NCBI RefSeq assembly: GCF_024281235.1
Contig: NZ_JAHWXY010000004.1
Coordinates: 186,001 to 250,000, forward strand
Direction of reading: 5' to 3'
DNA length: 64,000 nucleotides
Source of the DNA: Shinella daejeonensis
GTDB taxonomy: Bacteria; Pseudomonadota; Alphaproteobacteria; Rhizobiales; Rhizobiaceae
Positions 18,709 to 44,343 of the stretch are shown here, in pieces (positions within the stretch are counted from its first letter, which is position 1; each line of letters opens with the position of its first letter). The notes beneath the pieces are model-generated. The model searched no databases. It had not been told where the DNA came from and worked only from the letters and a program-made list of their open reading frames with translations. Position numbers and translations under genes: made by a program.

Positions 18709-18743
18709 TCCCGGCCGTATGAAATCAGAAGAAGTGAATGGTC

Positions 18744-19151: not shown

Positions 19152-19179
19152 CGCCGGCCGGAACATGCCTGCCTTTCCC

Positions 19180-19204: not shown

Positions 19205-19347
19205 GCCTTTTCGGGCAAGGAACCGATGCGCCGGGGAAAGATTTCGACTTCTTCGCTTGCATCCTCCGCTTGCATGATTCCTTAATCGGATTCCGCTTTA
19301 AAATCCTGAACAGACGGACGCGGACGAAGGGCAAGGAGAGCCGGATC

Positions 19348-20775: not shown

Positions 20776-20787
20776 TCTGGACGGCGT

Positions 20788-29291: not shown

Positions 29292-29920
29292 AGGCCGGGC
29301 CTTGCAAGCGCATTGAGGGCGGCGGCCGTCATGGCGCTGCCGCCGAGCCGGCCACGCACGATGGCGAAGGGCACGCCATAGGCGTTTTCGGCAAGCGCCT
29401 CCTTCGATTCGGCCGCCCCCACGAAACCGACCGGCATGCCGAGGATGGCCGCCGGCTTCGGTGCGCCGTCGCGCAGCAGTTCGAGCAGGTAGAAAAGCGC
29501 GGTCGGCGCGTTGCCGATGGCCACCACCGAGCCCGCCATGCGGTCGAGCCAGAGACGGATGGCCGCCGCCGAGCGGGTGTTGCCGATCTCATCGGCCAAT
29601 TGCGGCGTGCGCGGATCGCGCAGGGTGCAGAGAATATCGTTTTCCGCCGGAAGCCGCGCCGCCGTGACGCCGCGCGCCACCATTTCCGCATCGCAGAGGA
29701 TCGGCGCGCCGGCGACAAGCGCTCCGCGCGCCGCCGCCACGAAATCCGGCGAGAAGACGAAATGCTCCGCCGCCTCGACAAGGCCCGCCGCATGGATCAT
29801 GCGCACGGCGACATCGGCTTCGGCTTCGGAAAAGCGCGCAAGGTCGGCCTCCGCGCGGATGATGGCGAAGGAGCGCTCATAGATGGCCGCGCCATCCTTG
29901 ATATAGTCGTAGTGGATCAT
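29288..29920 (-). CDS. cobH: Precorrin-8X methylmutase
   Basis: Moves the C11 methyl to C12, converting precorrin-8X to hydrogenobyrinate without a cofactor. 210 residues; the catalytic histidine is in VRMIHAAGLVEAAEHF (about residue 42), with APILCDAEMVARGV, GNAPTALFYLLEL and GMPVGFVGAAESKEAL as further signatures. The start overlaps cobG and the end overlaps cobI by four bases each. Confidence 0.95.
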   Translation of the reverse strand: MIHYDYIKDGAAIYERSFAIIRAEADLARFSEAEADVAVRMIHAAGLVEAAEHFVFSPDFVAAARGALVAGAPILCDAEMVARGVTAARLPAENDILCTLRDPRTPQLADEIGNTRSAAAIRLWLDRMAGSVVAIGNAPTALFYLLELLRDGAPKPAAILGMPVGFVGAAESKEALAENAYGVPFAIVRGRLGGSAMTAAALNALARPGL

Positions 29921-31239
29921 ATCCTGCCCTGAAATGCGGTTTCAAACGGCTTTTCGCCCAGTCGGTCGTAAAGCGTGGAAAAGGTCTCGTCCGGCCGGCG
30001 TTCGCGCCGGACGAACGCGTCGAGGCGGGCAAGCGCGGCGGACAGATCGCCGGAGGCCACGACGGCGGCCGGTGCGTCGCCCGCCCTGCCGGACAGCACA
30101 AGGCCCGTTCCCTCTGGCGTGCCGACCAGCGTCAGCGACGCCCTGGCGGGATGGGCGCAGCCCTTCGGGCAGCCGGAGATATGGACGGACGCCGTGCCGT
30201 CGAGAAGCGTAGGCGCGGTTGCGCGAAGCGCGTCGGCGACGGCATGGGTGTCGAGCTTCGCCGCGGCGCAGCCGGCCGAGCCGGCGCAGACGGACAGCGC
30301 CAGGCCGGGATCGTCGGGATCGGTGCAGAAACCCCGGCCCTCCGCCCGTCGCCGGGCCGTGGCGATCTGCGCCTGGGCCAGTCCCCGCGCCAGCAGCGCG
30401 CGATGCGGCGCAAGGCGCATATCGGTGACGCCGAGTTCTTCGAGATCGTCGGCCAGCCCCGCCAGCCGGTCAGCGTCGACCTGGCCGTAGGGCAGGCGCA
30501 GGCCGAGTACGAAGGCGTCGTCCAGTGCGATCACGCCGACCGGCGGGCGAGGGGAAACGGGCCTCCATGCGGGGTCGTCCATGCGCTCTCCCGCCAGATC
30601 ACGTCCCCGCGCGGCGGGACCACGCGCGTCGAGCAGGCGGAGAAGACGCAGAACCTCTTTAATAGCCTGCGATGCATCGAGCAGGGCGACGGGGCGGGCG
30701 GAAAATGCATTGCCTGCGATGGAAATCCGCCACCGCACCGCGTCTGCGCACCTGACGGCATCGAGACGCAGGTCGGCAACCATATCGGCAAGCGACAGCA
30801 CGCCGCCGCCATCCACCACGATGGCGAGTTTCGGTGCAAGCGTCAGCGGCGGCTTGCAACCGGCGATCGCCGCTTCGAGGGCGGTGGCCAGAGGCCCGGC
30901 GTCCGCCGTCTCGGACGGGTCGAGCCCCGAAAGCGGCGGGGTCTCGATGGCGACCCCGGACCGCGGCGCGATGCCGGCTGCGTCGAGTGCTGCCCGAAGC
31001 TTCGGTGCGGTTTTGGCGGTGAGCCCCCGGATCTGGAGATTGCCCCGCGCGGTGATGTCGAGAATGCCGTTGCCGTGGCTGCGGGCAAGCTGCGCCAGGG
31101 TGCGCCATTGCGCGGGCGCAAGTCCGGCCGCCCGGGGCCTCAGCCGCACCAGCAATCCGTCGCCGGTTGGCATCGGCGTCAGGACCGAGGGGCAGGCGCC
31201 CCGCCGGAACGGGACTGTCAGGTCGGAGGCCGGGTTCAT
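29917..31239 (-). CDS. cobG: Precorrin-3B synthase (oxygen-dependent)
   Basis: Fe-S monooxygenase of the aerobic pathway that hydroxylates precorrin-3A at C20 and forms the gamma-lactone needed for ring contraction. 440 residues related to nitrite/sulfite reductases; the 4Fe-4S ligands are visible in SVCAGSAGCAAAK and ISGCPKGCAHPA, and the N-terminal RGACPSVLTPMPTGDGLL and DITARGNLQIRGL are family motifs. The ATG at 31239 overlaps the cobF stop (ATGA) and has a GGAGGG site. Presence of CobG shows that the O2-dependent, late-cobalt route is used. Confidence 0.94.
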   Translation of the reverse strand: MNPASDLTVPFRRGACPSVLTPMPTGDGLLVRLRPRAAGLAPAQWRTLAQLARSHGNGILDITARGNLQIRGLTAKTAPKLRAALDAAGIAPRSGVAIETPPLSGLDPSETADAGPLATALEAAIAGCKPPLTLAPKLAIVVDGGGVLSLADMVADLRLDAVRCADAVRWRISIAGNAFSARPVALLDASQAIKEVLRLLRLLDARGPAARGRDLAGERMDDPAWRPVSPRPPVGVIALDDAFVLGLRLPYGQVDADRLAGLADDLEELGVTDMRLAPHRALLARGLAQAQIATARRRAEGRGFCTDPDDPGLALSVCAGSAGCAAAKLDTHAVADALRATAPTLLDGTASVHISGCPKGCAHPARASLTLVGTPEGTGLVLSGRAGDAPAAVVASGDLSAALARLDAFVRRERRPDETFSTLYDRLGEKPFETAFQGRI

Positions 31240-32018
31240 TCGCCCTCCTCGCCGCCGCTTTCGACAGGGCGGCGGATCAGATAGGTATCCATGATCCAGC
31301 CATGTTCGGCGCGGGCGGCCCGCCGGGTTTCGGCGATCGTGCCGGCGATCTCGCAAAGTCGGCCCGACAGCGTGATCTCCATCGGCGTTCCCAGATAGGC
31401 GCCCCAATGGATGACCGCATCGGGATCGTCCACCGTCTCGAAGGCCTGCACGCCGTCGAGCATCACCGCGATGTCGCGCACGCTTTCCGGCCAGCCCGCG
31501 GAAAGCCGGCGGCCGGTGGTGACCTGGACGGGCAGGCCGATCCGGTTCAGCGGGATGCGGTGGCTGGCGCAAAGCGCCTGAAGGCTGGTGATGCCGGGAA
31601 TGACGTCATAGTCGAAGGCGACCCGCCCGGCGGTGCGTACCAGATCGATGATGCGGATGGTGCTGTCATAGAGCATCGGGTCGCCCCAGACGAGCAGGCC
31701 GAGGGTCTCGTCCGCGTCGAGATTTTCCAGCAGCATCCGCTCGTAGATCGCGGCGATTGCGGTGTGCCAATCGGTGACGCCGGCGCCGTAGTCGCCGTCG
31801 GCGCGCCGTTTGGGAACCGGGAACTCGTGGATACGGGGCATCCGGCCGGTGATGAAGCGCTCGCAGATATCGTGACGCAGCGTCGCCAGAAAGGCTTTCT
31901 CGTCGCCCTTGGTCGGAATAAACAGGACGTCGCAGGCGTTCAGCGCATCGATGGCCTGAACGGTCATGTGATCGGGATTTCCCGTTCCTATCCCGATGAT
32001 GCGAATGCGTCTCGTCAC
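31236..32018 (-). CDS. cobF: Precorrin-6A synthase (deacetylating), C1-methyltransferase
   Basis: Methylates C1 and releases acetate, converting precorrin-5 to precorrin-6A; specific to the aerobic pathway. 260 residues: IRIIGIGTGNPDHMTVQA, VLFIPTKGDEKAFL, LLVWGDPMLYDSTIRI and VIPGITSLQALCASHRIPLNRIG are typical of CobF. I start it at GTG 32018, which has GGAGG 6 nt upstream; the frame is open 26 codons further without conserved sequence. First gene of the coupled cobF-G-H-I-J run. No B12-box riboswitch is recognisable in the 131 bp before it. Confidence 0.93.
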   Translation of the reverse strand: MTRRIRIIGIGTGNPDHMTVQAIDALNACDVLFIPTKGDEKAFLATLRHDICERFITGRMPRIHEFPVPKRRADGDYGAGVTDWHTAIAAIYERMLLENLDADETLGLLVWGDPMLYDSTIRIIDLVRTAGRVAFDYDVIPGITSLQALCASHRIPLNRIGLPVQVTTGRRLSAGWPESVRDIAVMLDGVQAFETVDDPDAVIHWGAYLGTPMEITLSGRLCEIAGTIAETRRAARAEHGWIMDTYLIRRPVESGGEEGE

Positions 32019-32149
32019 GTCTGCCTCCGTGCGCTCTTGCGCTGCCGGCTGTTGCCGCGTCCCGGAATGGGTCCCGCTTCTCCTTCCTAATCTCAAACGG
32101 TGGTGGAAAACAGCCCCTGAAACGCGTCCTCGACCGGTCTTTTTGAGAC

Positions 32150-32971
32150 TCAGGCCCCCTGGCGGTTGTGGAAATAGAGTTTCGGGGCGCTGCCGAGCAT
32201 GCGCTTGAACATGGTGGTGAAGGCGGGAACGCTGTCATAGCCCGCCTCCAGCGCCACCTGGGTGACCGGCAGGCCGGCGGCAAGCTTCGGCAGGCAGGCG
32301 AAAATCACCGCCTGCTGACGCCAGGTGGAGAAGCTGACCCCCGTCTCCTCGCGAAACAGCCGGGTGAAGCTGCGCCGGCTCATGTGCAGGCGGGCCGCCC
32401 AGTCGTCGATCTTGGCGTCGGGCGCCGGATCGTCCATGAAGCGGCGGCAGAGCGCGGCAAGCCGGGCGTGGGAGGGAAACGGCAGACCCAGAGGCCGATC
32501 GCGCAGCCGGCCGATCTCGTCGAGGAGCAGCGCCATGACCAGTTCGGCCCGCCGGGAATCCGCTTCCATCGGCGTGAGCCGCACCGCCTCCGTCAGGAGT
32601 TGCTGCGCCAGTTCCGTCACTTCGAGCACGGCGGGTTCGGGCGAGGCCGCCAGTCCTTCGCCCGACATGACGTAGACGGAGCGCATCGTCACGTCGCTAT
32701 GCATTTCCACCGAATGCTCCAGCCCTCGCGGAATGAGCAGCGCGTGGCCCGGCGGGATCATCCAGCGTCCCCGCACCGTCGCCACTAGGACGACGCCCGC
32801 GAAGACGCAGAGAAACTGCGTGCGGCGATGCCGGTGCGGCGGAACGATATAGCCATGCGGCACTTCGGAATTATGCACGATGACGTCGGCGTTCGATTGC
32901 TCCACCCGGACGAGGTTCCGCAGATGATCGTCGTGAAGCGTGGCGTTGCGGCTGTGCGTCAATCTGTCCAT
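32150..32971 (-). CDS. AraC-family regulator with cupin sensor domain (NimR-like)
   Basis: A 273-residue regulator with an N-terminal cupin (VPPHRHRRTQFLCVFAG, WMIPPGHALLIPRGLEHSVEM; about residues 40-95) and a C-terminal double helix-turn-helix (KIDDWAARLHMSRRSFTRLFREETG and TQVALEAGYDSVPAFTTMFKRMLG; about 185-265). It is divergently arranged with an Fsr-type MFS exporter 105 bp away, the same layout as AraC/MFS efflux pairs such as NimR-NimT of E. coli, so it probably controls that exporter. It is also upstream of cobF on the same strand, but a role there is unsupported. Confidence 0.88.
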   Translation of the reverse strand: MDRLTHSRNATLHDDHLRNLVRVEQSNADVIVHNSEVPHGYIVPPHRHRRTQFLCVFAGVVLVATVRGRWMIPPGHALLIPRGLEHSVEMHSDVTMRSVYVMSGEGLAASPEPAVLEVTELAQQLLTEAVRLTPMEADSRRAELVMALLLDEIGRLRDRPLGLPFPSHARLAALCRRFMDDPAPDAKIDDWAARLHMSRRSFTRLFREETGVSFSTWRQQAVIFACLPKLAAGLPVTQVALEAGYDSVPAFTTMFKRMLGSAPKLYFHNRQGA

Positions 32972-33076
32972 ATTGGCCCGATCAAGAAAGAAATGGACCA
33001 GAACACGAAAGCAGGCCGTCTACAATCCCTGTATGGATGACGGCTGACAATTCCGTCCCTGACATTCGAGGTCCAG

Positions 33077-34273
33077 ATGTCGGCAGTCGCTCCTGCCGCG
33101 CCGTCTCCTGCGCGAACCACCTTCTCCATCATCCTCGCCGTCAGCCTGTGCCACATGCTGAACGACATCATGCAGTCGTTGCTGACGTCCCTTTATCCGT
33201 TGCTGAAGGAAAACTACGCGCTCGACTTCGTGCAGATCGGCCTTCTCACCATGGCTTTCCAGGTCACGGCCTCGATGCTCCAGCCGGCCGTGGGCATAGT
33301 CACCGACCGCTGGCCGATGCCCTTCTCGCTGCCCGTCGGCATGGGCAGCACGTTCTGCGGCCTGATCCTGCTCGCCTATGCGCACAGTTTTCCCGTTCTC
33401 GTCTTCGGGGCGTGCCTGATCGGCTTCGGCTCGGCGGTCTTCCATCCGGAGGCCTCGCGCGTGGCGCGGCTTGCCTCCGGCGGCCGGCACGGCTTCGCGC
33501 AATCGATGTTCCAGGTCGGCGGCAATGCCGGCACGGCGATGGGGCCGCTGCTTGCGGCCTTCATCGTGCTGCCTTTCGGCCAGACCAGCCTTGCCTGGTT
33601 CTCCGCCATCGCGCTGATCGGCATGGGGATCCTGAGCTGGGTCGGCAACTGGTATGCCGGCGAGCAGCGCCTTTCGGCCGGGCGGCCCGCCGCAAGCCGC
33701 GCCCTGCCGCTGCCGGGCGGCAAGGTCGCCTGGGCACTTGCCGTGCTGGTGCTGCTCACCACCACCAAGAACGTCTATCTTGCTAGCCTCTCGAGCTATT
33801 TCACCTTCTACACGATTGAGCATTTCGGCCTCAGCGTGCAGCAGGCGCAACTGATGCTGTTCCTGTTCCTCGGCGCTTCGGCTGTCGGCGTCTTTCTCGG
33901 CGGGCCGATCGGCGACCGCTACGGCGCGCGCTTCGTGATCTGGCTGTCGATCCTGGGCGTGATCCCGTTCACGCTGATCCTGCCCTATGCCGATCTGTTC
34001 TGGACCGGCGTGCTGACGGTGCTGATCGGCCTGATCTTCTCGTCCGCCTTCTCGGCCATCGTCGTCTTCGCGCAGGAGCTGGTGCCCGGCCGGGTCGGCC
34101 TGATCGCCGGCATCTTCTTCGGCTTCGCCTTCGGCGCGGGCGGTCTCGGCGCGGCGGTTCTAGGCCTGTTCGCCGACAGCCACGGCATCGACTTCGTCTA
34201 CCATATCTGCTCCTATCTGCCGCTGCTCGGGATCCTGACGATCCTGCTGCCGCGTCTGCCCGGCCGGCATTGA
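33077..34273 (+). CDS. MFS exporter, fosmidomycin-resistance (Fsr) type
   Basis: A 398-residue inner-membrane protein with about 12 hydrophobic segments, interrupted midway by a polar loop (EQRLSAGRPAASRALPLPGG, near residue 195). Fsr-group features include SLCHMLNDIMQSLLTSLYPLLK at the start, VGIVTDRWPMPFSLPVGM, GFGSAVFHPEASRVAR, and FFGFAFGAGGLGAAVLG. The family exports fosmidomycin and small phosphonate or aromatic compounds by proton antiport; the natural substrate here is unknown. GAGGTC precedes the ATG. Divergent from the AraC regulator that probably controls it. Confidence 0.9.
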   Translation: MSAVAPAAPSPARTTFSIILAVSLCHMLNDIMQSLLTSLYPLLKENYALDFVQIGLLTMAFQVTASMLQPAVGIVTDRWPMPFSLPVGMGSTFCGLILLAYAHSFPVLVFGACLIGFGSAVFHPEASRVARLASGGRHGFAQSMFQVGGNAGTAMGPLLAAFIVLPFGQTSLAWFSAIALIGMGILSWVGNWYAGEQRLSAGRPAASRALPLPGGKVAWALAVLVLLTTTKNVYLASLSSYFTFYTIEHFGLSVQQAQLMLFLFLGASAVGVFLGGPIGDRYGARFVIWLSILGVIPFTLILPYADLFWTGVLTVLIGLIFSSAFSAIVVFAQELVPGRVGLIAGIFFGFAFGAGGLGAAVLGLFADSHGIDFVYHICSYLPLLGILTILLPRLPGRH

Positions 34274-34339: not shown

Positions 34340-35623
34340 TCAGATCCGCGCGCCGGCGAAATGCGCGATCTGCGCACCGAGTTCGTAATAGCCTTCCCGC
34401 AGGGCAAGCAGGGAGCGGGCCTCGGGGTCGCTCACCGGCAGGGGCAGGTCCTTCTCGGTGATGTCGCCGGAAATCAGTTCGGCGAGCGTGCGGCCGAAGA
34501 CGGTGCCCGGCGCGATGCCGCGCCCGTTATAGCCGCTGAAGCCGACGACGTTTTCCGCCAGCCGGTGAAAGCGCGGCAACGAATCGGTGGTCATGCCGAT
34601 CTTGCCGTACCACTCCGCCTCGAAGGCGATGTTTCCAAGCGCCGGGAAGAGTTTCGCCAGCGCCCGCTGCGCCCAGGCCCTGTGGATGCCCGTGCCCGGG
34701 CCGCGCAGCGCCCCGACGCTGCCGAACACCAGCCGGCCGCGTTTGTCGAAGCGGAAGGAGGAAAGCACCTCCTTGGTATCCCAGACGCCCTGCCGCTCGG
34801 GCAGGATCTTCGCCTGCATTTCGGACGGCAGCGGCACGGTGGCGAAATTGAAATAGGGCAGGTGGACAAGCTCGGCGCGCACTTCGGGCCAGGGCGCGTT
34901 GGTATAGGCGTTGGTGGCGACGACCACCCAGTCGGCCGTGATCTCTCCACGCGCCGTCTTCACGGTCCAGCGCCGGCCGTTGCGTTCCGCGCCGATGACC
35001 GGGCTTGCGGTGAATACCTGCGTTCCGGCGGCGATCGCCGCGCGGGCAAGGCCGCGCACATAGGCAAGCGGCTGGATCGTGCCGGCCCGCAGGTCGAGCA
35101 GCGATCCGGCGTAGGCATCCGTCCCGACCTTCTGCGCCGTCTCGGTGGCATCGAGCAGGCGCACCGGCGCGCCGCGCCGGCTCCATTGCCCGGCGCGTTG
35201 CTCCAGCTCCCGCAAGCCGCTCCGGCCCACCGCGCAATGCAGCGTGCCGACCGGCATCGCCTCGCAATCCATGCCATGCTTTTCCACGAGGTCGAAGACC
35301 AGGCGCGGCGCATCGCCGAGCAATGCGAGAAGCCGCCCGCCATAGACCTCGCCGAGCGCTCCCGGCAGTTCGTCCGGCATCACCCACATGCCCGCGTTGA
35401 CGAGGCCGACATTGCGTCCCGAGCCTCCGAAGCCGATCTCGGCGCCTTCCAGCAGCACGACGCGCGTGCCGCGTTCGGCCAGATGCAAGGCCGTGGAAAA
35501 GCCCGTGAAGCCGCCGCCGACGACAACGACATCGGCCTCGGCACGGCCTGAAAAGGCGGCGGTTTCGGGAGCAGGCGGGGCGGTCACCTCCCAAAGGCCA
35601 TGGGAGCGCGGATCGTTGAGCAT
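34340..35623 (-). CDS. DadA-family FAD oxidoreductase, candidate L-pipecolate oxidase (AmaA-like)
   Basis: A 427-residue flavoprotein: FAD-binding VVVVGGGFTGFSTALHLAERG, GGSGRNVGLVNAGMWV, and C-terminal GFSGYNGRGIAPGTVFGRTLAELI. The family oxidises secondary or primary amines of amino acids to imines. Context points to lysine breakdown: in Pseudomonas putida (from memory) an AmaA pipecolate oxidase of about 428 residues lies beside amaB, a LysR regulator and hglS, and here the same three gene types are next door. It would then make piperideine-6-carboxylate, the AmaB substrate. A gamma-glutamylputrescine or other amine oxidase remains possible; a second member of the family is at 61486-62793. 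Confidence 0.8.
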   Translation of the reverse strand: MLNDPRSHGLWEVTAPPAPETAAFSGRAEADVVVVGGGFTGFSTALHLAERGTRVVLLEGAEIGFGGSGRNVGLVNAGMWVMPDELPGALGEVYGGRLLALLGDAPRLVFDLVEKHGMDCEAMPVGTLHCAVGRSGLRELEQRAGQWSRRGAPVRLLDATETAQKVGTDAYAGSLLDLRAGTIQPLAYVRGLARAAIAAGTQVFTASPVIGAERNGRRWTVKTARGEITADWVVVATNAYTNAPWPEVRAELVHLPYFNFATVPLPSEMQAKILPERQGVWDTKEVLSSFRFDKRGRLVFGSVGALRGPGTGIHRAWAQRALAKLFPALGNIAFEAEWYGKIGMTTDSLPRFHRLAENVVGFSGYNGRGIAPGTVFGRTLAELISGDITEKDLPLPVSDPEARSLLALREGYYELGAQIAHFAGARI

Positions 35624-35758
35624 GATCGTCTGTCTTTATTTCCGGAGAGGCGGTTGCGATGGCGCCACATTCCGGCATCGCGCGCAAGGGGAAAAACGAA
35701 ATTTCGGAACCGGGTCATGCCCATGCGGCATGACGGACCGCATCGGAAGCCGGATCCC

Positions 35759-36652
35759 TCATTCCACCTCGGCGGCGATCCAGGCGCGAAACGCCTGGCT
35801 GAGCGGATTCTCGAGCTTGCCCTCCGGTACGACGAGATAATAGCTGTTCTCGGTCTGCATCGGCCTGTCGAAGACGACCGACAGCCGGCCGGCGGCCAGT
35901 TCCTGCTCGATCAGATAGAGCGGAAGCAGGGCGAAGCCGAGGCCGCCGATGGCCGCCTCGATCACCATGGAGAACTGGTCGAAACGGTGGCCGCGATAGG
36001 CCGTCTCGGTCGCGCCGCCGTTGAGATCGAACCATTGCGCCCATAATTTGGGGCGGGTCGCCAGATGGAGAAGCGGCGCGTGCTCCAGTTCCTTCGGCTC
36101 GGCGGGCGTCGAGCGTTCAAGCAGCGCCGGGCTTGCCGCCGGCAGGATGATCTCGCTGCACAGATAGGAGCAGGAGGCCCGCGCCCAGACCGGCTGGCCG
36201 TAGTGGATCGCCAGGTCGAAATTCTCCTCGTCGAAATCGAAGGGCGCCGAGCGCGAGGCGATATTGAGGACGGTGCCGGGATGCTGCGCGAGGAAGCGGG
36301 GAACGCGCGGCGTCAGCCAGCGGCTGCCGAAGGTCGGCAGCGTCGCCACGCTGAGGCTGTGATCGGAAGAGGCCGACGCCATGGCGCGCAGCATCGTTTC
36401 CTCGGTCTGATGCAGGAGCTTGCGGACCTCCGGCAGGAACCGGCGGCCGTCGTCGGACAGGACGACGCGCTGGCGCACGCGCTCGAAAAGCAATACGCCG
36501 AGCTGTTCTTCCAGATCCTTGATCTGCCGGCTGACGGCGCTCTGGGTCAGGTTCAGCTCATGGGCGGCCTGGGTGAAGCTGCCGTGGCGCGCCGCACATT
36601 CGAAAGCCTGTAGCGTGGTGACGTCCGGAATCAACCGGCGACTGAGCTTCAT
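35759..36652 (-). CDS. LysR-family regulator (GcvA-like)
   Basis: A 297-residue LysR-type activator/repressor: N-terminal winged helix (DVTTLQAFECAARHGSFTQAAHELNLTQSAVSRQIKDLEEQLGV, seen in parts, residues about 9-58) and a periplasmic-binding-protein-like effector domain (about 95-295). It lies between the AmaA-like oxidase (same strand, downstream) and divergent hglS, with a 9-bp inverted repeat in the intergenic region that could be its operator. By position it should control the lysine/2-aminoadipate genes; the effector (perhaps 2-aminoadipate or pipecolate) is inference. Confidence 0.92.
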   Translation of the reverse strand: MKLSRRLIPDVTTLQAFECAARHGSFTQAAHELNLTQSAVSRQIKDLEEQLGVLLFERVRQRVVLSDDGRRFLPEVRKLLHQTEETMLRAMASASSDHSLSVATLPTFGSRWLTPRVPRFLAQHPGTVLNIASRSAPFDFDEENFDLAIHYGQPVWARASCSYLCSEIILPAASPALLERSTPAEPKELEHAPLLHLATRPKLWAQWFDLNGGATETAYRGHRFDQFSMVIEAAIGGLGFALLPLYLIEQELAAGRLSVVFDRPMQTENSYYLVVPEGKLENPLSQAFRAWIAAEVE

Positions 36653-36673
36653 TCGTTCCTCGCATCAACATAG

Positions 36674-36724
36674 TCAAAACGGTCGCAATCGCGGGGTAGA
36701 ACGATCCGGTATGATCCGTTTTGA
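36674..36724. promoter_or_regulatory. Candidate LysR operator between lysR and hglS
   Basis: Perfect 9-bp inverted repeat TCAAAACGG (36674-36682) and CCGTTTTGA (36716-36724), separated by 33 bp that include two copies of GATCCG (within 36702-36718). The roughly 50-bp span is the size usually bound by LysR tetramers. The binding protein is inferred from position. Confidence 0.5.
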
Positions 36725-36753
36725 GAATGATCAGGGCCTCCCACCCTTCTAAA

Positions 36754-36797
36754 GCAATTTCGCGAAAAGTGTGAAGCGGTTTTCCATCCGGAATTGC
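36754..36797 (+). repeat. RIME-type palindromic repeat, half copy 4 (hglS leader)
   Basis: GCAATTTC ... GGAATTGC ends around AAAGTGTGAAGCGGTTTTCCATCC, the first palindrome of the repeat family. It lies between the candidate LysR operator and the hglS start, so it will be in the 5' leader or promoter of the lysine operon. Confidence 0.75.
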
Positions 36798-36823
36798 GCA
36801 ACAATGAGACGAGACCGTTTGTC

Positions 36824-38221
36824 ATGACAGAAAATCCACACGTCCACGCCGACGATATCCGCTCCCGCTTCTCGGCGGCGATGTCCGCGATGTATCGCGA
36901 CGAGGTTCCGGCCTATGGTACGCTGATGTCGCTGGTTGCCGCCGTCAACGCGGAAACGCTTGCCGCCGATCCGGTCTTGCGGGAGCGGCTGGAAGCCACC
37001 GGTTCGCTCGATCGCATTTCCGAGGAGCGCCATGGCGCGATCCGTCTCGGCACGCCGGCGGAACTGTCCATGATGCGCCGGGTCTTCGCGGTGATGGGCA
37101 TGGACCCGGTCGGCTACTACGATCTTTCGACGGCCGGCGTCCCCGTCCATTCCACCGCCTTCCGCCCGGTCGGGGAGGAGAGCCTGAAGCGCAACCCGTT
37201 CCGCGTCTTCACCTCGCTGCTGCGTCTCGACCTCATCGCCGACGAGGCGTTGCGGGAGGAGGCCGCCGCCGTGCTCGCTACCCGCAGGATCTTCACGGAC
37301 GAAGCCGTCGCGCTCGTCGAGAAGGCCGAGCGTGACGGCGGCCTTGATGAGACCGATGCGGCGCGCTTCGTCTGCGAAGTGCTCGAAACCTTCCGCTGGC
37401 ACGATCATGCGATCGTCAGCGCCGGGATGTACGGGCGCCTGCACGATGCGCACCGGCTGATTGCCGATGTCGTGTCCTTCAGGGGGCCGCATATCAACCA
37501 CCTGACCCCGCGCACGCTCGATATCGACAAGGTGCAGGCGCGGATGCCGCAAGAGGGTATCGCTCCCAAGGCCGTCGTCGAAGGGCCGCCGACCCGGCGT
37601 TGCCCGATCCTGCTGCGCCAGACCTCCTTCAAGGCGCTGGACGAAGCCGTCTCCTTCGCCGGTCCGGACGGCAGCTGGCAGAAGGGCTCGCATACGGCCC
37701 GCTTCGGTGAGATCGAGCAGCGCGGCGTAGCCCTGACCCCGAAGGGCCGCGCGCTCTACGATCAGCTGCTGAGCGAGACCCGCGCCCGTGTGCGCCCGGC
37801 CGCCGACGGCTCCAATGCGGCAGAATACGAAGCAGCGCTCGCCGATGTCTTCAAGGCGTTTCCGGACGACTGGGACGACATGCGCAAGGCCGGCCTCGGT
37901 TACTTCAGCTATTCGCTGACGGAGAAGGGTAGGGCGGCCTCGGGCCGCAAGGCCGATCTCGAGACGGCCATCGAGGCGGGCCTCATCCGGTTCGATCCGA
38001 TCGTCTACGAGGACTTCCTGCCTGTCAGCGCCGCCGGCATCTTCCAGTCGAACCTCGGCGATGACGCGACGCAGGAATTTGCCGCCAGCCCCAACCAGCT
38101 GATGTTCGAGCGCGATCTGGGCGTGGCCGTGCTCGACGAGTTCGCGCATTATGCCGGCATCGAGCGTGCATCGCTTGAAATCTGCCTCACCATCGTCAAC
38201 ATGGCCGTCGCCGCGGAGTGA
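36824..38221 (+). CDS. hglS: 2-oxoadipate dioxygenase/decarboxylase (D-2-hydroxyglutarate synthase)
   Basis: Fe(II)-dependent VOC-superfamily enzyme (DUF1338, formerly YdcJ) converting 2-oxoadipate plus O2 to D-2-hydroxyglutarate plus CO2 in lysine degradation. 465 residues, like the P. putida enzyme (about 464). Residues matching its metal site and substrate arginine, as I remember the structure, are present at expected places: H70 and R74 in ERHGAIRLG, H226 in GPHINHLTPR, a glutamate at 296 in RFGEIEQRG, and V401 in FLPVSAAGIF. I choose the ATG at 36824; the upstream TTG at 36794 lies inside a repeat. The stop overlaps the next gene by four bases. Confidence 0.9.
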   Translation: MTENPHVHADDIRSRFSAAMSAMYRDEVPAYGTLMSLVAAVNAETLAADPVLRERLEATGSLDRISEERHGAIRLGTPAELSMMRRVFAVMGMDPVGYYDLSTAGVPVHSTAFRPVGEESLKRNPFRVFTSLLRLDLIADEALREEAAAVLATRRIFTDEAVALVEKAERDGGLDETDAARFVCEVLETFRWHDHAIVSAGMYGRLHDAHRLIADVVSFRGPHINHLTPRTLDIDKVQARMPQEGIAPKAVVEGPPTRRCPILLRQTSFKALDEAVSFAGPDGSWQKGSHTARFGEIEQRGVALTPKGRALYDQLLSETRARVRPAADGSNAAEYEAALADVFKAFPDDWDDMRKAGLGYFSYSLTEKGRAASGRKADLETAIEAGLIRFDPIVYEDFLPVSAAGIFQSNLGDDATQEFAASPNQLMFERDLGVAVLDEFAHYAGIERASLEICLTIVNMAVAAE

Positions 38222-39648
38222 CAGACAAGAGAATGATCGACGCCCATATCGAGGCATTGCAGAACCTGCTCGGCGAGAAAGGCCTTCTCGCTACGGCCTC
38301 CGATATGGCGGCCTATGAGACGGGCGCGCGCTACGATCACGGCGCGGCCGCCTTCGTGGCGCGGCCGGCCTCCACCGGGGAAGTCTCGGCGGTCGTCTCC
38401 TACTGCGTTCGAAACGGCATCGCGCTGATACCGCAATCCGGCAATACCGGCCTCGTCTCCGGCTCGACGCCGGACGATAGCGGCCGGCAGGGCGTCTTGA
38501 GCCTCGACCGGCTGACCGCGCCCTTCGCGCTCGACCGGGTGAACCGCACGGTGAAGGCCGGGGCAGGGCTTCGCCTGTCCGACCTCAACGGCAGGCTGGA
38601 GGAGGCCGGTCTTTTCTTCCCGATCGACCTCGGGGCGGATCCGTGTCTCGGCGGCATGATCGCCACCAATACCGGCGGCTCGCGTTTCCTGCGCTATGGC
38701 GACGTACGCCGCAATACGCTGGGCCTCACGGTCGTGCTTGCCGACGAGGACGGCACGGTGCTCGACCTGTCCTCGGGCCTGCGCAAGAACAATACGGGCA
38801 TCGACTGGAAACAGCTGTTCATCGGCACCTCGGGCGCCTTCGGCATCGTCACCGAATGCGTGCTGAACCTCGAGCCCCTGCCGCGCCAGACCGCGACCGC
38901 GCTGCTCGTGCCGGCCTCGACGGAGGCGGTTCCCGCCCTGCTCGTGGCGATGGAGGAGGCTCTCGGCAGCTATCTTTCCGCCTTCGAGGGCATGTCCGGC
39001 AATGCGGTGCGCGCGGCGCTTGACCATGTCGCTTCGCTCCGCAATCCATTTCAGGGCGGCATCGTTCCGGATTTCGTGATCCTTGCCGAGATTTCCCGCT
39101 CCAGCCCGCAGCGCGAGGGCGAGCAGCCGCTCGACGCGGTGCTGGAGGACGTGCTGGCGGCAATCTGGGAGCAGGAAGGCGCGCCGCTTGCCGATGCCTT
39201 CGTCGGTCCGCCGCACGAGATCTGGGCGCTGCGGCATGGGCTTTCGGAAGGTGTCAAACATAGCGGGCGATTGATCGCCTTCGATCTATCCTTCCGGCGG
39301 GGCGACATCATGCGTTTCCTCGACCATATGAAGGCGGAGATGCCGAAACGCTTTGCGGATGTGACCATCTGCGACTTCGGCCATATCGGCGACGGCGGCG
39401 TGCACTTCAACCTCGTTGTCGCCTGCGACGACCGGCGGCTTGCCGATCCGGGCTTCGAGCCGGGTTTGCGCGAATGGGTGTTCACGGCCGCCGTGGAAAC
39501 CTTCGGCGGCAGCTTCAGCGCGGAACATGCGATCGGCCGCAAGAACCAAGGCTTCTACGACAAATATACCCCGGATGAGATCCGCAAGCTGGCGGCCGGG
39601 CTGAAATCGATCACCTCGCCGGGTCCGCTCGGCGCCATGACATTCTGA
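38218..39648 (+). CDS. FAD-linked D-2-hydroxyglutarate dehydrogenase-like oxidoreductase
   Basis: A 476-residue FAD_binding_4 / FAD-oxidase C-terminal protein of the glycolate-D-lactate-D-2-hydroxyglutarate dehydrogenase group. Seen: PP-loop ALIPQSGNTGLVSGS near residue 80, LGADPCLGGMIATNTGGSRFLRYG, and the metal-binding DFGHIGDGGVHFNLV near residue 390 and AEHAIGRKNQ near the C-terminus. Its start (GTG) overlaps the hglS stop, so the two are coupled; that makes D-2-hydroxyglutarate, the HglS product, the natural substrate, giving 2-oxoglutarate. In P. putida a different FAD enzyme (YdiJ) does this step. An ATG at 38233 is an alternative start. Confidence 0.88.
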   Translation: MTDKRMIDAHIEALQNLLGEKGLLATASDMAAYETGARYDHGAAAFVARPASTGEVSAVVSYCVRNGIALIPQSGNTGLVSGSTPDDSGRQGVLSLDRLTAPFALDRVNRTVKAGAGLRLSDLNGRLEEAGLFFPIDLGADPCLGGMIATNTGGSRFLRYGDVRRNTLGLTVVLADEDGTVLDLSSGLRKNNTGIDWKQLFIGTSGAFGIVTECVLNLEPLPRQTATALLVPASTEAVPALLVAMEEALGSYLSAFEGMSGNAVRAALDHVASLRNPFQGGIVPDFVILAEISRSSPQREGEQPLDAVLEDVLAAIWEQEGAPLADAFVGPPHEIWALRHGLSEGVKHSGRLIAFDLSFRRGDIMRFLDHMKAEMPKRFADVTICDFGHIGDGGVHFNLVVACDDRRLADPGFEPGLREWVFTAAVETFGGSFSAEHAIGRKNQGFYDKYTPDEIRKLAAGLKSITSPGPLGAMTF

Positions 39649-39670
39649 CAGGACAATAGGGAGACATCTC

Positions 39671-41194
39671 ATGACGACAGTCGACGTGAAAAAGGAAACC
39701 GCAGCTCTTCTCGACAAGCTGGGCGTGCCGCGCGCGGCCTGGGAAGGCGGCGACATGGCCTCCTTCAGCCCGGTGAGCGGCGAGGAGATCGCCCGGCTGA
39801 AGACCGTTTCGGCCGAAGGCGCCGCCGGGGCGATCGACGCCGCCCATGCGGCCTTCAAGGAATGGCGTCTCGTGCCTGCGCCGAAGCGCGGCGAACTCGT
39901 ACGCCTGCTCGGCGAGGAATTGCGCGCCGCCAAGGACGATCTCGGTCGTCTCGTCTCGATCGAGGCCGGCAAGATCACGTCCGAGGGCCTCGGCGAAGTG
40001 CAGGAAATGATCGACATCTGCGATTTCGCCGTCGGACTTTCCCGCCAGCTCTACGGCCTGACCATCGCCACAGAGCGCCCCGGCCACCGCATGATGGAGA
40101 CCTGGCATCCGCTCGGCGTCGTCGGAGTCATCTCGGCCTTCAACTTCCCGGTCGCCGTCTGGTCGTGGAACACCGCGCTGGCGCTCGTCTGCGGCAATGC
40201 CGTCGTCTGGAAGCCCTCCGAAAAGGCGTCGCTGACCGCGCTCGCCAGCCAGGCGATCCTCGAGCGCGCCATCGCCCGCTTCGGCGACGCTCCGAAGAAC
40301 CTGTCGCAGGTTCTCATCGGCGACCGGGCGATCGGCGAAGTCCTCGTCGATCATCCGAAGGTCGCGCTCGTCTCGGCCACCGGCTCCACCCGCATGGGCC
40401 GGGAGGTCGGCCCGCGCCTGGCGAAGCGTTTCGCCCGTTCGATCCTCGAACTCGGCGGCAACAACGCCGGCATCGTCTGCCCTTCGGCCGATCTCGACAT
40501 GGCGCTGCGCGCCATCGCCTTCGGCGCCATGGGCACCGCCGGCCAGCGCTGCACGACGCTGCGTCGCCTGTTCGTGCATGACAGCGTCTACGACCAGCTC
40601 GTGCCTCGCCTGAAGAAAGCCTATACGAGCGTTTCCGTCGGCAACCCGCTGGAGACCTCGGCGCTGGTCGGCCCGCTGGTCGATAAGCAGGCCTATGACA
40701 ACATGCAGAAGGCGCTGGAAGCGGCGAAGGCGGCGGGCGGTTCCGTCACCGGCGGCGAGCGCGTCACGGACGCCGGCAAGGACACGGCCTACTATGTGAA
40801 GCCGGCGATCGTCGAAATGCCGAAGCAGGCCGGACCGGTTCTCGAAGAGACCTTCGCGCCGATCCTCTACGTCATGAAGTATTCCGACTTCGACAAGGCG
40901 CTGGAAGACCATAACGCGGTGGCGGCGGGCCTCTCCTCGTCGATCTTCACGCTGAACATGCAGGAGGCCGAGCGCTTCCTGTCGGCCGACGGCTCCGATT
41001 GCGGCATCGCCAATGTCAATATCGGCACATCGGGCGCGGAAATCGGCGGGGCGTTCGGCGGCGAGAAGGAAACCGGCGGCGGCCGCGAGAGCGGGTCCGA
41101 CGCCTGGAAGGCCTATATGCGCCGCGCGACCAACACCGTGAACTATTCGAAGGCGCTGCCGCTCGCCCAGGGCGTCTCCTTCGATATCGAGTAA
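39671..41194 (+). CDS. amaB: L-aminoadipate-semialdehyde dehydrogenase (piperideine-6-carboxylate dehydrogenase)
   Basis: ALDH7-family enzyme oxidising 2-aminoadipate-6-semialdehyde, in equilibrium with piperideine-6-carboxylate, to L-2-aminoadipate with NAD. 507 residues: VVGVISAFNFPVAVWSWNTALALVCGN is typical of ALDH7/AmaB, the catalytic Glu is in ILELGGNNAGIV, the catalytic Cys in GTAGQRCTTLRRL, and the C-terminus has GGAFGGEKETGGGRESGSDAWK. A GGGAG site precedes the ATG. It lies 22 bp after the FAD dehydrogenase and 6 bp before the aminotransferase, in one operon starting at hglS. Confidence 0.92.
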   Translation: MTTVDVKKETAALLDKLGVPRAAWEGGDMASFSPVSGEEIARLKTVSAEGAAGAIDAAHAAFKEWRLVPAPKRGELVRLLGEELRAAKDDLGRLVSIEAGKITSEGLGEVQEMIDICDFAVGLSRQLYGLTIATERPGHRMMETWHPLGVVGVISAFNFPVAVWSWNTALALVCGNAVVWKPSEKASLTALASQAILERAIARFGDAPKNLSQVLIGDRAIGEVLVDHPKVALVSATGSTRMGREVGPRLAKRFARSILELGGNNAGIVCPSADLDMALRAIAFGAMGTAGQRCTTLRRLFVHDSVYDQLVPRLKKAYTSVSVGNPLETSALVGPLVDKQAYDNMQKALEAAKAAGGSVTGGERVTDAGKDTAYYVKPAIVEMPKQAGPVLEETFAPILYVMKYSDFDKALEDHNAVAAGLSSSIFTLNMQEAERFLSADGSDCGIANVNIGTSGAEIGGAFGGEKETGGGRESGSDAWKAYMRRATNTVNYSKALPLAQGVSFDIE

Positions 41195-42431
<1,237 letters not shown>

Positions 42432-42433
<2 letters not shown>

Positions 42434-42532
42434 GCATTTCCAGCAAAAGTGCGTAGCGGTTTTGCGTCCGGAAATACGGCTACGAGAAAGAGAGAGCGGC
42501 TCTACCGAACCTGTGAAAAGCGGAATCGCTCT
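42432..42532 (+). repeat. RIME1-type intergenic element, full two-palindrome copy
   Basis: About 101 bp beginning within the stop codon of the aminotransferase gene. First palindrome: AGCATTTCCAGCAAAAGTGC ... GCGTCCGGAAATAC; linker with GAGAAAGAGA; second palindrome: AGAGCGGCTCTACCG ... AGCGGAATCGCTCT. Reverse-complement alignment with 21481-21590 is nearly continuous. A strong terminator follows 34 bp later. Confidence 0.85.
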
Positions 42533-42566
42533 CAGCCGATGGCCAGACGACGGGCAAACAAGAAAA

Positions 42567-42590
42567 GGGGGGCGCTGGCCCCCCATTTTT
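42567..42590 (+). terminator. Rho-independent terminator of the hglS-aminotransferase operon
   Basis: GGGGGGC and GCCCCCC form a 7-bp GC stem with a GCTG loop, preceded by AAAA and followed by ATTTTT. It is a strong terminator on the plus strand and, because of the AAAA, could also work on the minus strand. Confidence 0.85.
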
Positions 42591-42652
42591 ATTGGTCCGC
42601 GCCCTTGGCGGGCGTTCTCTCTTCCCCGCGGAGTGAGCCGCAGACAGGCGAA

Positions 42653-42674
42653 CGCCCCGGCTGAAACCGGGGCG
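42653..42674 (-). terminator. Hairpin downstream of the lysine dehydrogenase gene
   Basis: CGCCCCGG and CCGGGGCG form a perfect 8-bp stem with a 6-nt loop, 20 nt past the end of the minus-strand gene. There is no clear T run, so termination could be Rho-assisted. Confidence 0.45.
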
Positions 42675-42693
42675 TGTCGGAAGATTCTGGCAA

Positions 42694-43794
42694 TCAGGCG
42701 GCGCGCGCGCCGTGATGCTCCTGCGCGTAGTAACGGCCGAAGCGGTTGGCGAGGAAGGCGGACAGCGCGATTTCCTCCTGGCGGACGAAGCCCCTGGCGC
42801 CGAGCGTTCCGTCGGCCAGCATGTCGAGCACGGCGCAGATCGAGCCTGCGGTGGTGATCTGGATCGCCGAGTGCAGGCGGCCGGCGACCGGCGCGCTATA
42901 GACCTTGTTTGCGTAGGTTTCCTGCACGAGGCGGCCGGCCTTGCGGCCGGAGACGGTCACGAAGATGATGACGACGTCCTGCGTGGTGGTGGGCAGGGCG
43001 TTCTCGAAGATATCCTTCAGCACGTCGCGGCGATGGCGAAGCCCGAGATCGTTCAGGAGCGCCTTCATGATGGCGACATGGCCCGGATAGCGAATGGTCT
43101 TGTAGTTCAGCGTGCGGACCTTGTCCTTCAGCGTGTCGCAGAGCGTGCCGAGGCCGCCCGATGTGTTGAACGCCTCATAGGTCACGCCGTCGAGCGAGAA
43201 CTCCTCGCGTTCCTCCAGCGCCGGCACCTCGATCAGCGCGCCTTCGACGATCGCCTCGCAGGGTTCGATATATTCGTTGATGACGCCGTCCGTGCTCCAG
43301 GTGAGATTGTAGTTCAGCGCGTTGGACGGATACTGCGGCAGCGCGCCGACGCGCATGCGCACGCTGTCGAGCGTATCGAAGCGGCTGGCGAGATCGTTGG
43401 CGACGATGGAGATGAAGCCCGGCGCAAGGCCGCACTGGGGAATGAAGGCGGTCTTCGCCTCTGCGGCGATGCGCTTGACCTGACGGGTGGATTCGACGTC
43501 TTCGGTGAGGTCGAGATAGTGCACGCCGGCGTCGGCGGCCGCCTCGGCGATGGCGACGGTCAGGTGATAGGGCGCGGCGGAAAGGACGGCGAACCTGCCG
43601 GCAAGCAGCTTGCGCATGGCCGCCCCGTCCGCGATGTCGACGACTGCCGTCGATATGGCGTCGTGCTGCTCGATGGCGGCGAGCTGTTCTTCCGCCCGGT
43701 CGGCGATCGTAACCCGATAGTCGCCGCTATGGGCCAGAATCCTGGCGATGGTGGAACCGATCTTGCCGGCGCCGATGACGACGATATCCTTCAT
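42694..43794 (-). CDS. Saccharopine-dehydrogenase-fold protein, probable lysine 6-dehydrogenase
   Basis: A 366-residue NAD(P)-dependent oxidoreductase: Rossmann start IVVIGAGKIGSTIARILA, then VHYLDLTEDVESTRQVKR, FIPQCGLAPGFISIVANDLA and a C-terminal domain of the saccharopine dehydrogenase type. It is a stand-alone domain of about the size of Agrobacterium and Geobacillus lysine 6-dehydrogenases, which deaminate the epsilon-amino group of L-lysine to give 2-aminoadipate semialdehyde. Convergent with the amaB operon and divergent from an Lrp regulator, it would supply the AmaB substrate. The ATG at 43794 has a GGAGGAAA site. A saccharopine or carboxyspermidine reductase is the alternative. Confidence 0.85.
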   Translation of the reverse strand: MKDIVVIGAGKIGSTIARILAHSGDYRVTIADRAEEQLAAIEQHDAISTAVVDIADGAAMRKLLAGRFAVLSAAPYHLTVAIAEAAADAGVHYLDLTEDVESTRQVKRIAAEAKTAFIPQCGLAPGFISIVANDLASRFDTLDSVRMRVGALPQYPSNALNYNLTWSTDGVINEYIEPCEAIVEGALIEVPALEEREEFSLDGVTYEAFNTSGGLGTLCDTLKDKVRTLNYKTIRYPGHVAIMKALLNDLGLRHRRDVLKDIFENALPTTTQDVVIIFVTVSGRKAGRLVQETYANKVYSAPVAGRLHSAIQITTAGSICAVLDMLADGTLGARGFVRQEEIALSAFLANRFGRYYAQEHHGARAA

Positions 43795-43862
43795 GCTTTC
43801 CTCCAGAATGCAGTTCGCATGGAGTCTGATGATAAAGGCCGTCGATTTAAAGCGCCGTTTCA

Positions 43863-43893
43863 GGCATAATGAATGATCGATATCGGCATAATG
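43863..43893. promoter_or_regulatory. Direct repeat in the Lrp / lysine dehydrogenase intergenic region
   Basis: GGCATAATGA occurs at 43863-43872 and again at 43884-43893, 21 bp apart start to start, which is two helical turns. It lies where the first in-frame start codons of the Lrp gene occur, so if the start is the ATG at 43903 the repeat is upstream and could be the binding site of the Lrp protein. Confidence 0.45.
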
Positions 43894-44343
43894 ACGGTTG
43901 TCATGGACATTAAGACGATAAATCCCAAGGATCGCGAACTGCTGGCCATCCTCAGCGAAAACGCCCGCGAGCAGACGGCGGCCATTGCGCGCCGGCTCGG
44001 TCTGTCGCGAACCACCGTGCAGGCGAAGATCGAACGGCTGGAACGGGAAGGCATCATCGAGGGCTATGGCGTCAAGCTGTCGGCGGCTTACGAGAGCGGT
44101 ATGGTGAAGGCGCATGTGCTGATCACCATCGCGCCGAAGACGCTTGCCCGGGTAACGGCGGAACTGCACGGCATTTCGGCCGTGCGCACATTGCACTCCG
44201 TCAGCGGCAGCTTCGATCTCATCGCGGTGGTCGCCGCCGCCTCGATTGCCGAACTCGACCATCTGATCGACCGGATCGGCGAGATCGAGGGCGTGGAGCG
44301 AACGCTCTCCTCGATCATCCTGTCCACCCGGATCCGCCGTTAG
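43873..44343 (+). CDS. Lrp/AsnC-family regulator
   Basis: A 156-residue Lrp-type protein with an N-terminal helix-turn-helix (LLAILSENAREQTAAIARRLG, SRTTVQAKIERLEREGII) and a C-terminal RAM effector domain (VKAHVLITIAPKTLARVTAEL, VSGSFDLIAVVAAAS, LSSIILSTRIRR). The start may be the ATG at 43903 (MDIKTINPKDREL), giving 146 residues, closer to the usual length; the longer frame is reported. It is divergent from the lysine dehydrogenase gene, the typical place for a lysine-responsive Lrp regulator, but the ligand is inferred. Confidence 0.9.
   Translation: MIDIGIMTVVMDIKTINPKDRELLAILSENAREQTAAIARRLGLSRTTVQAKIERLEREGIIEGYGVKLSAAYESGMVKAHVLITIAPKTLARVTAELHGISAVRTLHSVSGSFDLIAVVAAASIAELDHLIDRIGEIEGVERTLSSIILSTRIRR

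Follow-up and report, generated by a model that had tools for sequence, protein, structure and literature searches.

Organization of the locus

A sequence-only reading had assigned eight genes to lysine catabolism within the window, that is, the whole 64-kb stretch of Shinella daejeonensis DNA analysed here. The ORF check and the translations showed that all eight are intact and open at the coordinates then given (34340-44343; Table 1), and their families agree with the identities proposed, with the calls for AmaA and the FAD dehydrogenase being the weaker ones. Pfam matches over the cluster correspond to DAO oxidoreductase, LysR, HGLS, FAD_binding_4 plus FAD-oxidase_C, Aldedh, Aminotran_1_2, Sacchrp_dh_NADP plus Sacchrp_dh_C, and AsnC/Lrp.

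Table 1. Genes and other features of the putative lysine catabolic cluster
Feature	Position	Strand	Basis
AmaA-like FAD oxidoreductase (DAO family), probable L-pipecolate oxidase	34340..35623	-	NF050086 best NCBIfam match, below cut-off
LysR-type regulator, divergent from HglS	35759..36652	-	PF00126, PF03466
HglS, 2-oxoadipate dioxygenase/decarboxylase	36794..38221	+	NF049974, PF07063, PDB 6w1g, residues
FAD-linked 2-hydroxyacid dehydrogenase, HglS partner, probable non-canonical D-2-hydroxyglutarate dehydrogenase	38218..39648	+	Adjacency, residues
AmaB, L-piperideine-6-carboxylate / 2-aminoadipate semialdehyde dehydrogenase (ALDH7 type)	39671..41194	+	NF050084, C294 and E260
AatB-type aminotransferase, probable 2-aminoadipate aminotransferase	41201..42433	+	PDB 6f35, HglS proximity
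Intrinsic-terminator-like hairpin between two convergent units	42567..42584	both	Terminator scan
Lysine 6-dehydrogenase-like protein (LysDH), saccharopine-dehydrogenase superfamily	42694..43794	-	PF03435, PF16653, 3abi
Lrp/AsnC regulator, divergent from LysDH gene	43873..44343	+	PF01037, HTH

The HglS and FAD dehydrogenase genes share a GTGA overlap (38218-38221), and the coordinates leave 22 nt between the FAD gene and the AmaB gene and 6 nt between the latter and the aminotransferase gene, the end of which is separated from the convergent LysDH gene by the hairpin. The stretch contains nine, partly overlapping, terminator-like matches, compared to 0.5 expected in shuffles. Alignments of the divergent intergenic regions (20 and 12 sequences), inspected by eye, showed brief stretches of conservation, but no palindrome shared convincingly enough to be proposed as an operator for LysR or Lrp. 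Searches of the 64-kb window detected no RNA families at gathering score and no tRNA.

AmaB, the aminotransferase, HglS and the AmaA-like protein

AmaB passes the NF050084 model (826.7, cut-off 730), and C294 and E260, which we take to be the catalytic Cys and Glu, are present in 55 of 55 aligned rows. The aminotransferase matches AatB of S. meliloti (PDB 6f35) with 748.9 bits over 410 aa (E 1e-224), and its K249, presumably the PLP lysine, is found in all 27 aligned rows; it does not reach the cut-off of the 'aspartate transaminase' equivalog NF004769 (564.6 versus 617). HglS scores above the cut-offs of both NCBIfam NF049974 (757.9 bits versus 550) and Pfam PF07063 (558.9 bits versus 25) and retrieves PDB 6w1g with an E value of 3e-171. 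The HHE iron triad (H80, H236 and E306) and R84, the counterpart of Arg74, are conserved in 55 of 56 rows, the remaining row being a gap, and V411 and S412 also are kept in the alignment. The residues checked bind the metal and 2-oxoadipate (PMC7286885), and Thompson et al. cite S. meliloti fitness data for HglS.

The AmaA-like protein falls short of the NF050086 (pipecolate_AmaA) cut-off (464.6 versus 600 bits) and is accordingly named AmaA-like only. Nevertheless, this model is its best NCBIfam match and the gene sits beside LysR-HglS; the protein, which matches homologues from Phaeobacter plasmids at 47-48%, is probably an L-pipecolate oxidase.

The FAD dehydrogenase adjacent to HglS

In 34 of the 36 sampled genomes with a close relative of the FAD protein, the gene lies directly beside that of HglS, no more than 66 nt from it. 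An overlap between the FAD gene and that of an HglS homologue (56-70% to the HglS of the window) is also seen in Aureimonas, Paracoccus, Mameliella, Roseovarius and Variovorax, and sequence comparison identified the genes annotated as 'VOC family protein' beside FAD genes as HglS homologues. In Aureimonas and Variovorax, ETF genes are located a few kb downstream of the HglS-FAD pair. The protein is not a YdiJ, given its score against NF049975 (37.2, cut-off 1350) and its length (476 aa versus about 1000 aa).

As read from the alignment, R339, H389, H396, E436 and H437 correspond to human R386, H434, H441, E475 and H476, so that the Zn ligands, the C1-carboxylate Arg and the catalytic His of canonical D-2-hydroxyglutarate dehydrogenases (D-2-HGDH) are kept in 35 of 35 rows; N443 is kept as well. 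By contrast, the C5-carboxylate Lys (human K401) is replaced by A354, and among the 34 genomes with an HglS-adjacent gene, the window's included, this position is occupied by Ala in 30, Gly in four and Lys in none. Furthermore, human T390 and Y432 are substituted by Ser and Phe, respectively. R361 and R418 are invariant in the alignment of the FAD protein. Mutation of K401 abolished the activity of human D-2-HGDH, and this Lys is described as strictly conserved in D-2-HGDH orthologues (PMC7801405).

The newest part of our finding is that the FAD protein probably is a dedicated partner of HglS with non-canonical substrate recognition. We lean slightly towards a distinct class of D-2-hydroxyglutarate dehydrogenases, dedicated to HglS in alphaproteobacteria and at least one betaproteobacterium, which might take D-2-hydroxyglutarate directly from HglS. 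If this is the substrate, its C5-carboxylate would be held by residues other than Lys, with R361 and R418 being candidates. In that case, the residue rule that sets these enzymes apart from D-lactate and glycolate dehydrogenases would need revision, and a set of proteins that carry no more than the label 'FAD-binding oxidoreductase' in the records inspected would gain a function.

Conservation across genomes

We surveyed 46 HglS loci with 10-kb flanks. The order and strands of the eight genes are the same in 14 of these, including all 12 Shinella loci, and 27 contain only AmaA-LysR-HglS-AmaB within the flanks. A LysR match adjoins HglS in every locus (46/46), and the AmaA-like gene occupies the same position beside LysR-HglS in 41. 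Across 247 genomes of the family, LysDH and HglS co-occur in 58, compared to 27.9 expected, although the genomes are related and the significance of this excess is thereby overstated. Given the recurrence of the eight-gene order, the cluster is more than chance, and the conserved order together with the co-occurrence counts argues against a fortuitous grouping of unrelated genes.

Of the 58 genomes encoding both, 12 have LysDH no farther than 15 kb from HglS and 46 do not, although broken contigs might hide some cases. The arrangement, which had been called uncommon, is thus indeed the minority form, but it is the form found throughout the sampled Shinella loci and has a parallel, with YdiJ, on rhizobial plasmids. 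The divergent LysDH-Lrp pair recurs in 50 loci besides the window, a count to which one genome can contribute several loci, and persists where LysDH lies away from HglS.

A proposed route from L-lysine to 2-oxoglutarate

From gene order, family membership, conserved residues and conservation across genomes, we infer each substrate and all regulation, and consider it likely that this is a dedicated catabolic cluster for L-lysine, and probably also L-pipecolate, of the Shinella branch of Rhizobiaceae. LysDH would convert L-lysine and NAD+ to 2-aminoadipate semialdehyde/piperideine-6-carboxylate and ammonia, whereas the AmaA-like oxidase would yield the same intermediate from L-pipecolate. AmaB would then produce 2-aminoadipate, the amino group of which would be transferred by the AatB-type enzyme to 2-oxoglutarate, with 2-oxoadipate and glutamate as products. 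HglS would use O2 to convert 2-oxoadipate to D-2-hydroxyglutarate and CO2, and the FAD enzyme would oxidize D-2-hydroxyglutarate to 2-oxoglutarate, with the electrons probably passing to ETF. LysR would govern the hglS side, and Lrp would govern lysDH.

As had been proposed, a single locus holds what looks like a complete route for L-lysine, with aminoadipate semialdehyde, 2-aminoadipate, 2-oxoadipate and D-2-hydroxyglutarate as intermediates, and combines LysDH with the HglS branch. The same proposal had linked the product of the route to SucA and SucB at the left end of the window. The 2-oxoglutarate dehydrogenase genes are present (SucA, 693-3770; SucB, 3878-5101; Lpd, 6588-8012; read from translations), but about 30 kb away, and the common substrate 2-oxoglutarate is the sole link. 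No D-lysine enzyme was read among the eight genes. Elsewhere in the genome, three Ldh_2 (PF02615) proteins score over the cut-off, but their best NCBIfam matches are other dehydrogenases, below cut-off, and we therefore make no claim for entry of D-lysine by DpkA-type enzymes. Our literature searches recognized no publication on this cluster, which is not to claim its absence from print.

Alternative substrates

The step from D-2-hydroxyglutarate to 2-oxoglutarate, which the sequence-only reading had assigned to a coupled FAD dehydrogenase, retains the adjacency to HglS in its favour, whereas the lack of the canonical Lys and the presence of two other candidates in the genome count against it. 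These candidates, a Lys-bearing D-2-HGDH-like paralogue (C3:71637) and a YdiJ over its cut-off (C22:378586), could catalyse the last step if the FAD enzyme acted on another 2-hydroxyacid. They also could mask the accumulation of D-2-hydroxyglutarate in a single FAD mutant. In the tree, some members of the FAD-protein clade are found without adjacent HglS, amid other catabolic genes, so the substrate range of the clade probably is wider. Nevertheless, the retained N443, Zn ligands and catalytic His, as well as the replacement of the FAD protein by YdiJ in sister clusters, speak for D-2-hydroxyglutarate; among solved structures, 3pm9 (a putative oxidoreductase) and the D-2-HGDH 6lpn are the nearest to the FAD protein and rank well above D-lactate and glycolate enzymes. 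We thus regard a different 2-hydroxyacid as rather unlikely and retain the FAD protein as the probable D-2-hydroxyglutarate dehydrogenase.

The aminotransferase, in turn, might be a general aspartate or aromatic transaminase present here by history, and its S. meliloti counterpart was deposited in the PDB as aspartate aminotransferase B. However, of the 39 genomes in which a close relative occurs, 35 keep it within 6 kb of HglS, a 71% relative is retained inside the clusters of Aureimonas and Paracoccus, and in the window the gene nearly abuts that of AmaB. A general transaminase therefore appears unlikely, and the AatB-type protein is probably a 2-aminoadipate aminotransferase. It seems more improbable still that the LysDH-like protein acts on a substrate other than lysine, such as saccharopine, with the cluster serving only L-pipecolate and 2-aminoadipate. 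The LysDH superfamily does include saccharopine and carboxynorspermidine enzymes, the LysDH-Lrp pair is separable (it is remote from HglS in S. meliloti), and the loci confined to the four-gene form, as in Brucella and Phyllobacterium, where LysDH is not nearby, may be such a case. No NCBIfam model covers LysDH. Its best full-length solved relative, however, is 3abi (365 aa; 89.8 bits versus at most 52.6 for saccharopine dehydrogenases of 450-497 aa), which carries only the name PH1688 in the PDB and which we take to be an L-lysine 6-dehydrogenase. Furthermore, the sole other PF16653 protein of the genome resembles carboxynorspermidine synthase (447 bits, model cut-off 800), so that no saccharopine dehydrogenase partner set is seen and the genome is unlikely to encode a saccharopine pathway. 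Structure models of LysDH and the FAD protein (mean pLDDT 47.5 and 40.3, respectively) were built from shallow alignments and were not used for any inference. Overall, a route from lysine to 2-oxoglutarate is the best reading of the cluster, assembled from known parts and not unique to this genome.

Comparison with known systems

The route and its parts are mostly known; the unusual element is the enzyme of the last step. The D-lysine/L-pipecolate route of P. putida, reportedly running through AmaA, AmaB and HglS (Thompson et al. 2019), shares the AmaB and HglS chemistry and the AmaA-like oxidase and LysR beside HglS. The window cluster further includes LysDH, by which L-lysine would enter directly, as well as the aminotransferase and the short FAD dehydrogenase, whereas P. 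putida presumably relies on a YdiJ-type last enzyme and a distant aminotransferase. Plasmid clusters of Mameliella and Roseovarius encode the aminotransferase, AmaB, an AmaA-like protein and an HglS whose gene overlaps that of an FAD dehydrogenase of the type found in the window, but on a single strand throughout and in another gene order, and no LysDH match was found in the stretches fetched. In Ruegeria pomeroyi, lysdh and aasadh (SPO0234-SPO0235) have consecutive locus tags, so that, by description, a lysine dehydrogenase likewise lies next to an aminoadipate semialdehyde dehydrogenase. The source states that genes of both lysine pathways were verified there and describes the pathway as leading to aminoadipate (PMC4334477).

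Further parallels come from Rhizobiales. The hglS cluster of S. meliloti Ak57 has LysR-HglS-FAD-AmaB-AatB in identical order, including a near-identical copy of the solved AatB, but LysDH-Lrp is found on the same record at a distance of about 250 kb, and no AmaA match was found beside HglS at this locus. Clusters on rhizobial plasmids (A. fabrum pRiA4b, R. tropici pRtrCIAT899c and Rhizobium sp. 007) combine LysR-HglS-AmaB-aminotransferase with LysDH-Lrp into a complete L-lysine route. No AmaA match was detected in the stretches fetched of these three clusters, and the short FAD protein is replaced by a YdiJ-type D-2-HGDH, which is over its cut-off in both copies scanned. These comparisons suggest that plant-associated bacteria carry one-locus HglS lysine routes with LysDH joined, some of them on conjugative plasmids, and that two kinds of last enzyme, the short FAD protein and YdiJ, are apparently interchangeable.

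Cluster organization and gene assignments

The putative lysine-degradation gene cluster recognized in the sequence-only reading is confirmed as eight intact genes (see the table below); the window spans C32:186001-250000 of a host genome of 4.66 Mb. Within the rightward run, HglS and the FAD dehydrogenase gene overlap by 4 nt (GTGA) and the subsequent gaps are 22 and 6 nt, while the Lrp gene diverges from the lysine dehydrogenase (LysDH)-like gene. Protein similarity places the host in Shinella or a close sister group: its HglS shares 86-87% identity with seven Shinella HglS, which are 89-94% identical among themselves. The regulator and transporter genes left of the cluster are retained beside it in 9 of 46 compared loci.

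Features of the window, its genome and the comparison loci (L numbers)
Location	Coordinates	Direction	Feature
Window	29917-32096	minus strand	Presumably cobalamin-synthesis-like genes: one CobG-like, one CobF-like protein
Window	32150-34273		AraC-type regulator and MFS transporter, presumably fosmidomycin-resistance-like, left of AmaA
Window	34340-44343		Eight-gene cluster
Window		leftward	AmaA-like gene, LysR
Window		rightward	HglS, FAD dehydrogenase, AmaB, aminotransferase, from divergent promoter region
Window	38218-39648	rightward	FAD dehydrogenase
Window	42567-42584		Terminator-like hairpin between rightward run and convergent LysDH-like gene
Same genome, C3	71637-72905		D-2-hydroxyglutarate dehydrogenase candidate with canonical lysine
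Same genome, C22	378586-381585		D-2-hydroxyglutarate dehydrogenase candidate, YdiJ above cut-off
L053, A. leguminum pTi	20031-41410		HglS-FAD-AmaB-aminotransferase about 14 kb from LysDH-Lrp; between them a lysA-like gene, amino-acid ABC transporter, paired FAD oxidoreductases
L054, Rhizobium sp. 007 plasmid	2835-20980		lysA, dapF, ABC transporter beside HglS-YdiJ-LysDH cluster
L057, Paracoccus sp. MA	13386-13883		Only a short gene after HglS, annotated FAD-binding protein
L097, Mameliella plasmid	3708-10371	one strand	Aminotransferase, AmaB, AmaA-like, HglS, FAD gene
L103, Roseovarius plasmid	3637-10305	one strand	As L097
L100	8983-10404		FAD protein of the same clade, without HglS nearby
L101	8968-12309		As L100
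L102	8980-10404		As L100
L104	8968-12271		As L100

We infer every functional assignment in the cluster. At the sequence level, the identities of HglS and AmaB are secure: both proteins pass curated equivalog cut-offs and keep the catalytic residues in aligned relatives (one of 56 rows of the HglS alignment is a gap at the catalytic columns). PMC7286885 cites fitness data on the S. meliloti HglS. The aminotransferase closely resembles AatB of S. meliloti (PDB 6f35). In S. meliloti Ak57, the hglS cluster includes a gene for a near-identical copy of AatB, and the position of the aminotransferase gene suggests 2-aminoadipate as the substrate. The nearest full-length solved structure to the LysDH-like protein is 3abi (PH1688; 89.8 bits, versus 52.6 for the best saccharopine dehydrogenase), which we take to be the first L-lysine 6-dehydrogenase structure. 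The AmaA-like protein scores 464.6 bits, short of the AmaA cut-off of 600. A homologue (47-48% identity) is encoded on Phaeobacter plasmids and is surrounded by unrelated genes in the single region examined of a P. inhibens plasmid. Curing of the 262-kb plasmid, which bears a putative pipecolate oxidase gene, is reported to cause L-pipecolate accumulation in P. inhibens (PMC5653290); the homologue may be that gene.

The HglS-coupled FAD dehydrogenase

The proposed route to 2-oxoglutarate largely stands, although the FAD dehydrogenase of its last step presents a puzzle that the sequence-only reading missed. Among solved structures, this protein best matches the putative oxidoreductase 3pm9 (284 bits with a profile), followed by mitochondrial D-2-hydroxyglutarate dehydrogenase 6lpn (255 bits), with lactate and glycolate enzymes at 179 or less. 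In the human enzyme, R386, H434, H441, E475 and H476 are described as handling zinc and the lactate end of the substrate, and K401, mutation of which abolishes activity, as binding the C5-carboxylate (PMC7801405). By sequence alignment, the former five are retained as R339, H389, H396, E436 and H437, and N443 as N398, but K401, T390 and Y432 are replaced by A354, S343 and F387. The HglS-adjacent proteins of 34 sampled genomes, including this one, carry Ala (30) or Gly (4) and never Lys in the K401 column (35 alignment rows, one genome present twice), and Ala occurs in all eight HglS-adjacent proteins of a wider comparison (Rhizobiaceae, Aureimonas, Paracoccus, Mameliella, Roseovarius, one Variovorax), down to 44% identity. 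The lysine is present in the paralogue at C3 and in an S. meliloti plasmid protein. An HglS-coupled FAD dehydrogenase without this lysine is the notable element of the cluster.

In a 31-row tree, the lysine-bearing proteins are separated from the HglS-adjacent ones, which nevertheless form no single clean clade: a few members not adjacent to HglS are mixed in (three label changes), so the link to HglS is not fixed throughout the clade. Clade members without HglS nearby (L100-L102, L104), which neighbour ETF, CoA-type degradation, gluconolactonase-like or aminotransferase genes, likely act on other 2-hydroxyacids. Given the YdiJ in the same genome, a mutant in the FAD gene alone may show no phenotype. 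ETF beta subunit and FAD-binding protein genes in Aureimonas, and ETF beta and alpha genes in Variovorax, lie downstream at a distance of a few kb from the HglS-FAD pair, suggesting ETF as the electron acceptor. PMC8651671 counts ETF among the genes often found next to bacterial d2hgdh; HglS does not occur in the available text of that paper.

Distribution and comparison with related loci

Of 247 family genomes, 36 encode FAD-protein relatives (E <= 1e-120), and 34 of these have the gene no more than 66 nt from HglS; the other two proteins (48-50% identity) are from genomes lacking an HglS match at E <= 1e-100, and none was found around the FAD gene (10 kb; 5.2-kb contig). Of 39 genomes with a relative of the aminotransferase (E <= 1e-190), 35 have its gene no more than 6 kb from HglS. 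LysDH is found in 85 genomes, HglS in 81 and both in 58 (27.9 expected, although relatedness overstates the significance). LysDH lies within 15 kb of HglS in 12 genomes, and is thus mostly encoded elsewhere, making the one-locus form a minority, although broken contigs may hide cases; 10 genomes, among them the four listed of the window's genus, hold all four genes together. In G096, G170 and G230, the three listed genomes of one genus, one stop codon lies within the LysDH frame.

Among 46 loci found via close HglS relatives (match thresholds: 40% identity and half length), 14 have the full eight-gene order, 27 the AmaA-LysR-HglS-AmaB form (one with AmaB in two pieces), two LysR-HglS-AmaB-aminotransferase-YdiJ and one LysR-HglS-FAD-AmaB-aminotransferase-AmaA without LysDH; two are otherwise arranged. 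In Brucella pituitosa (L021), AmaB matches are split in two pieces. The Mameliella and Roseovarius clusters may represent a compact pipecolate-to-2-oxoglutarate form in Rhodobacterales. With lysA read as diaminopimelate decarboxylase and dapF as epimerase, L054 suggests a plasmid-borne island leading from diaminopimelate via lysine to 2-oxoglutarate.

The pathway belongs to a known type, and its compact one-locus form represents a variant conserved at clade level. In R. tropici, A. fabrum (pRi) and Rhizobium sp. 007, plasmids instead carry LysR-HglS-AmaB-aminotransferase-YdiJ plus LysDH-Lrp, with YdiJ above its cut-off in both copies scanned (A. fabrum, Rhizobium sp. 007). Across 60 loci, the short FAD gene is present in 20, including this one, and YdiJ in seven, never both, some having neither. 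That two very different dehydrogenases replace each other in one pathway is the strongest evidence for their performing the same step.
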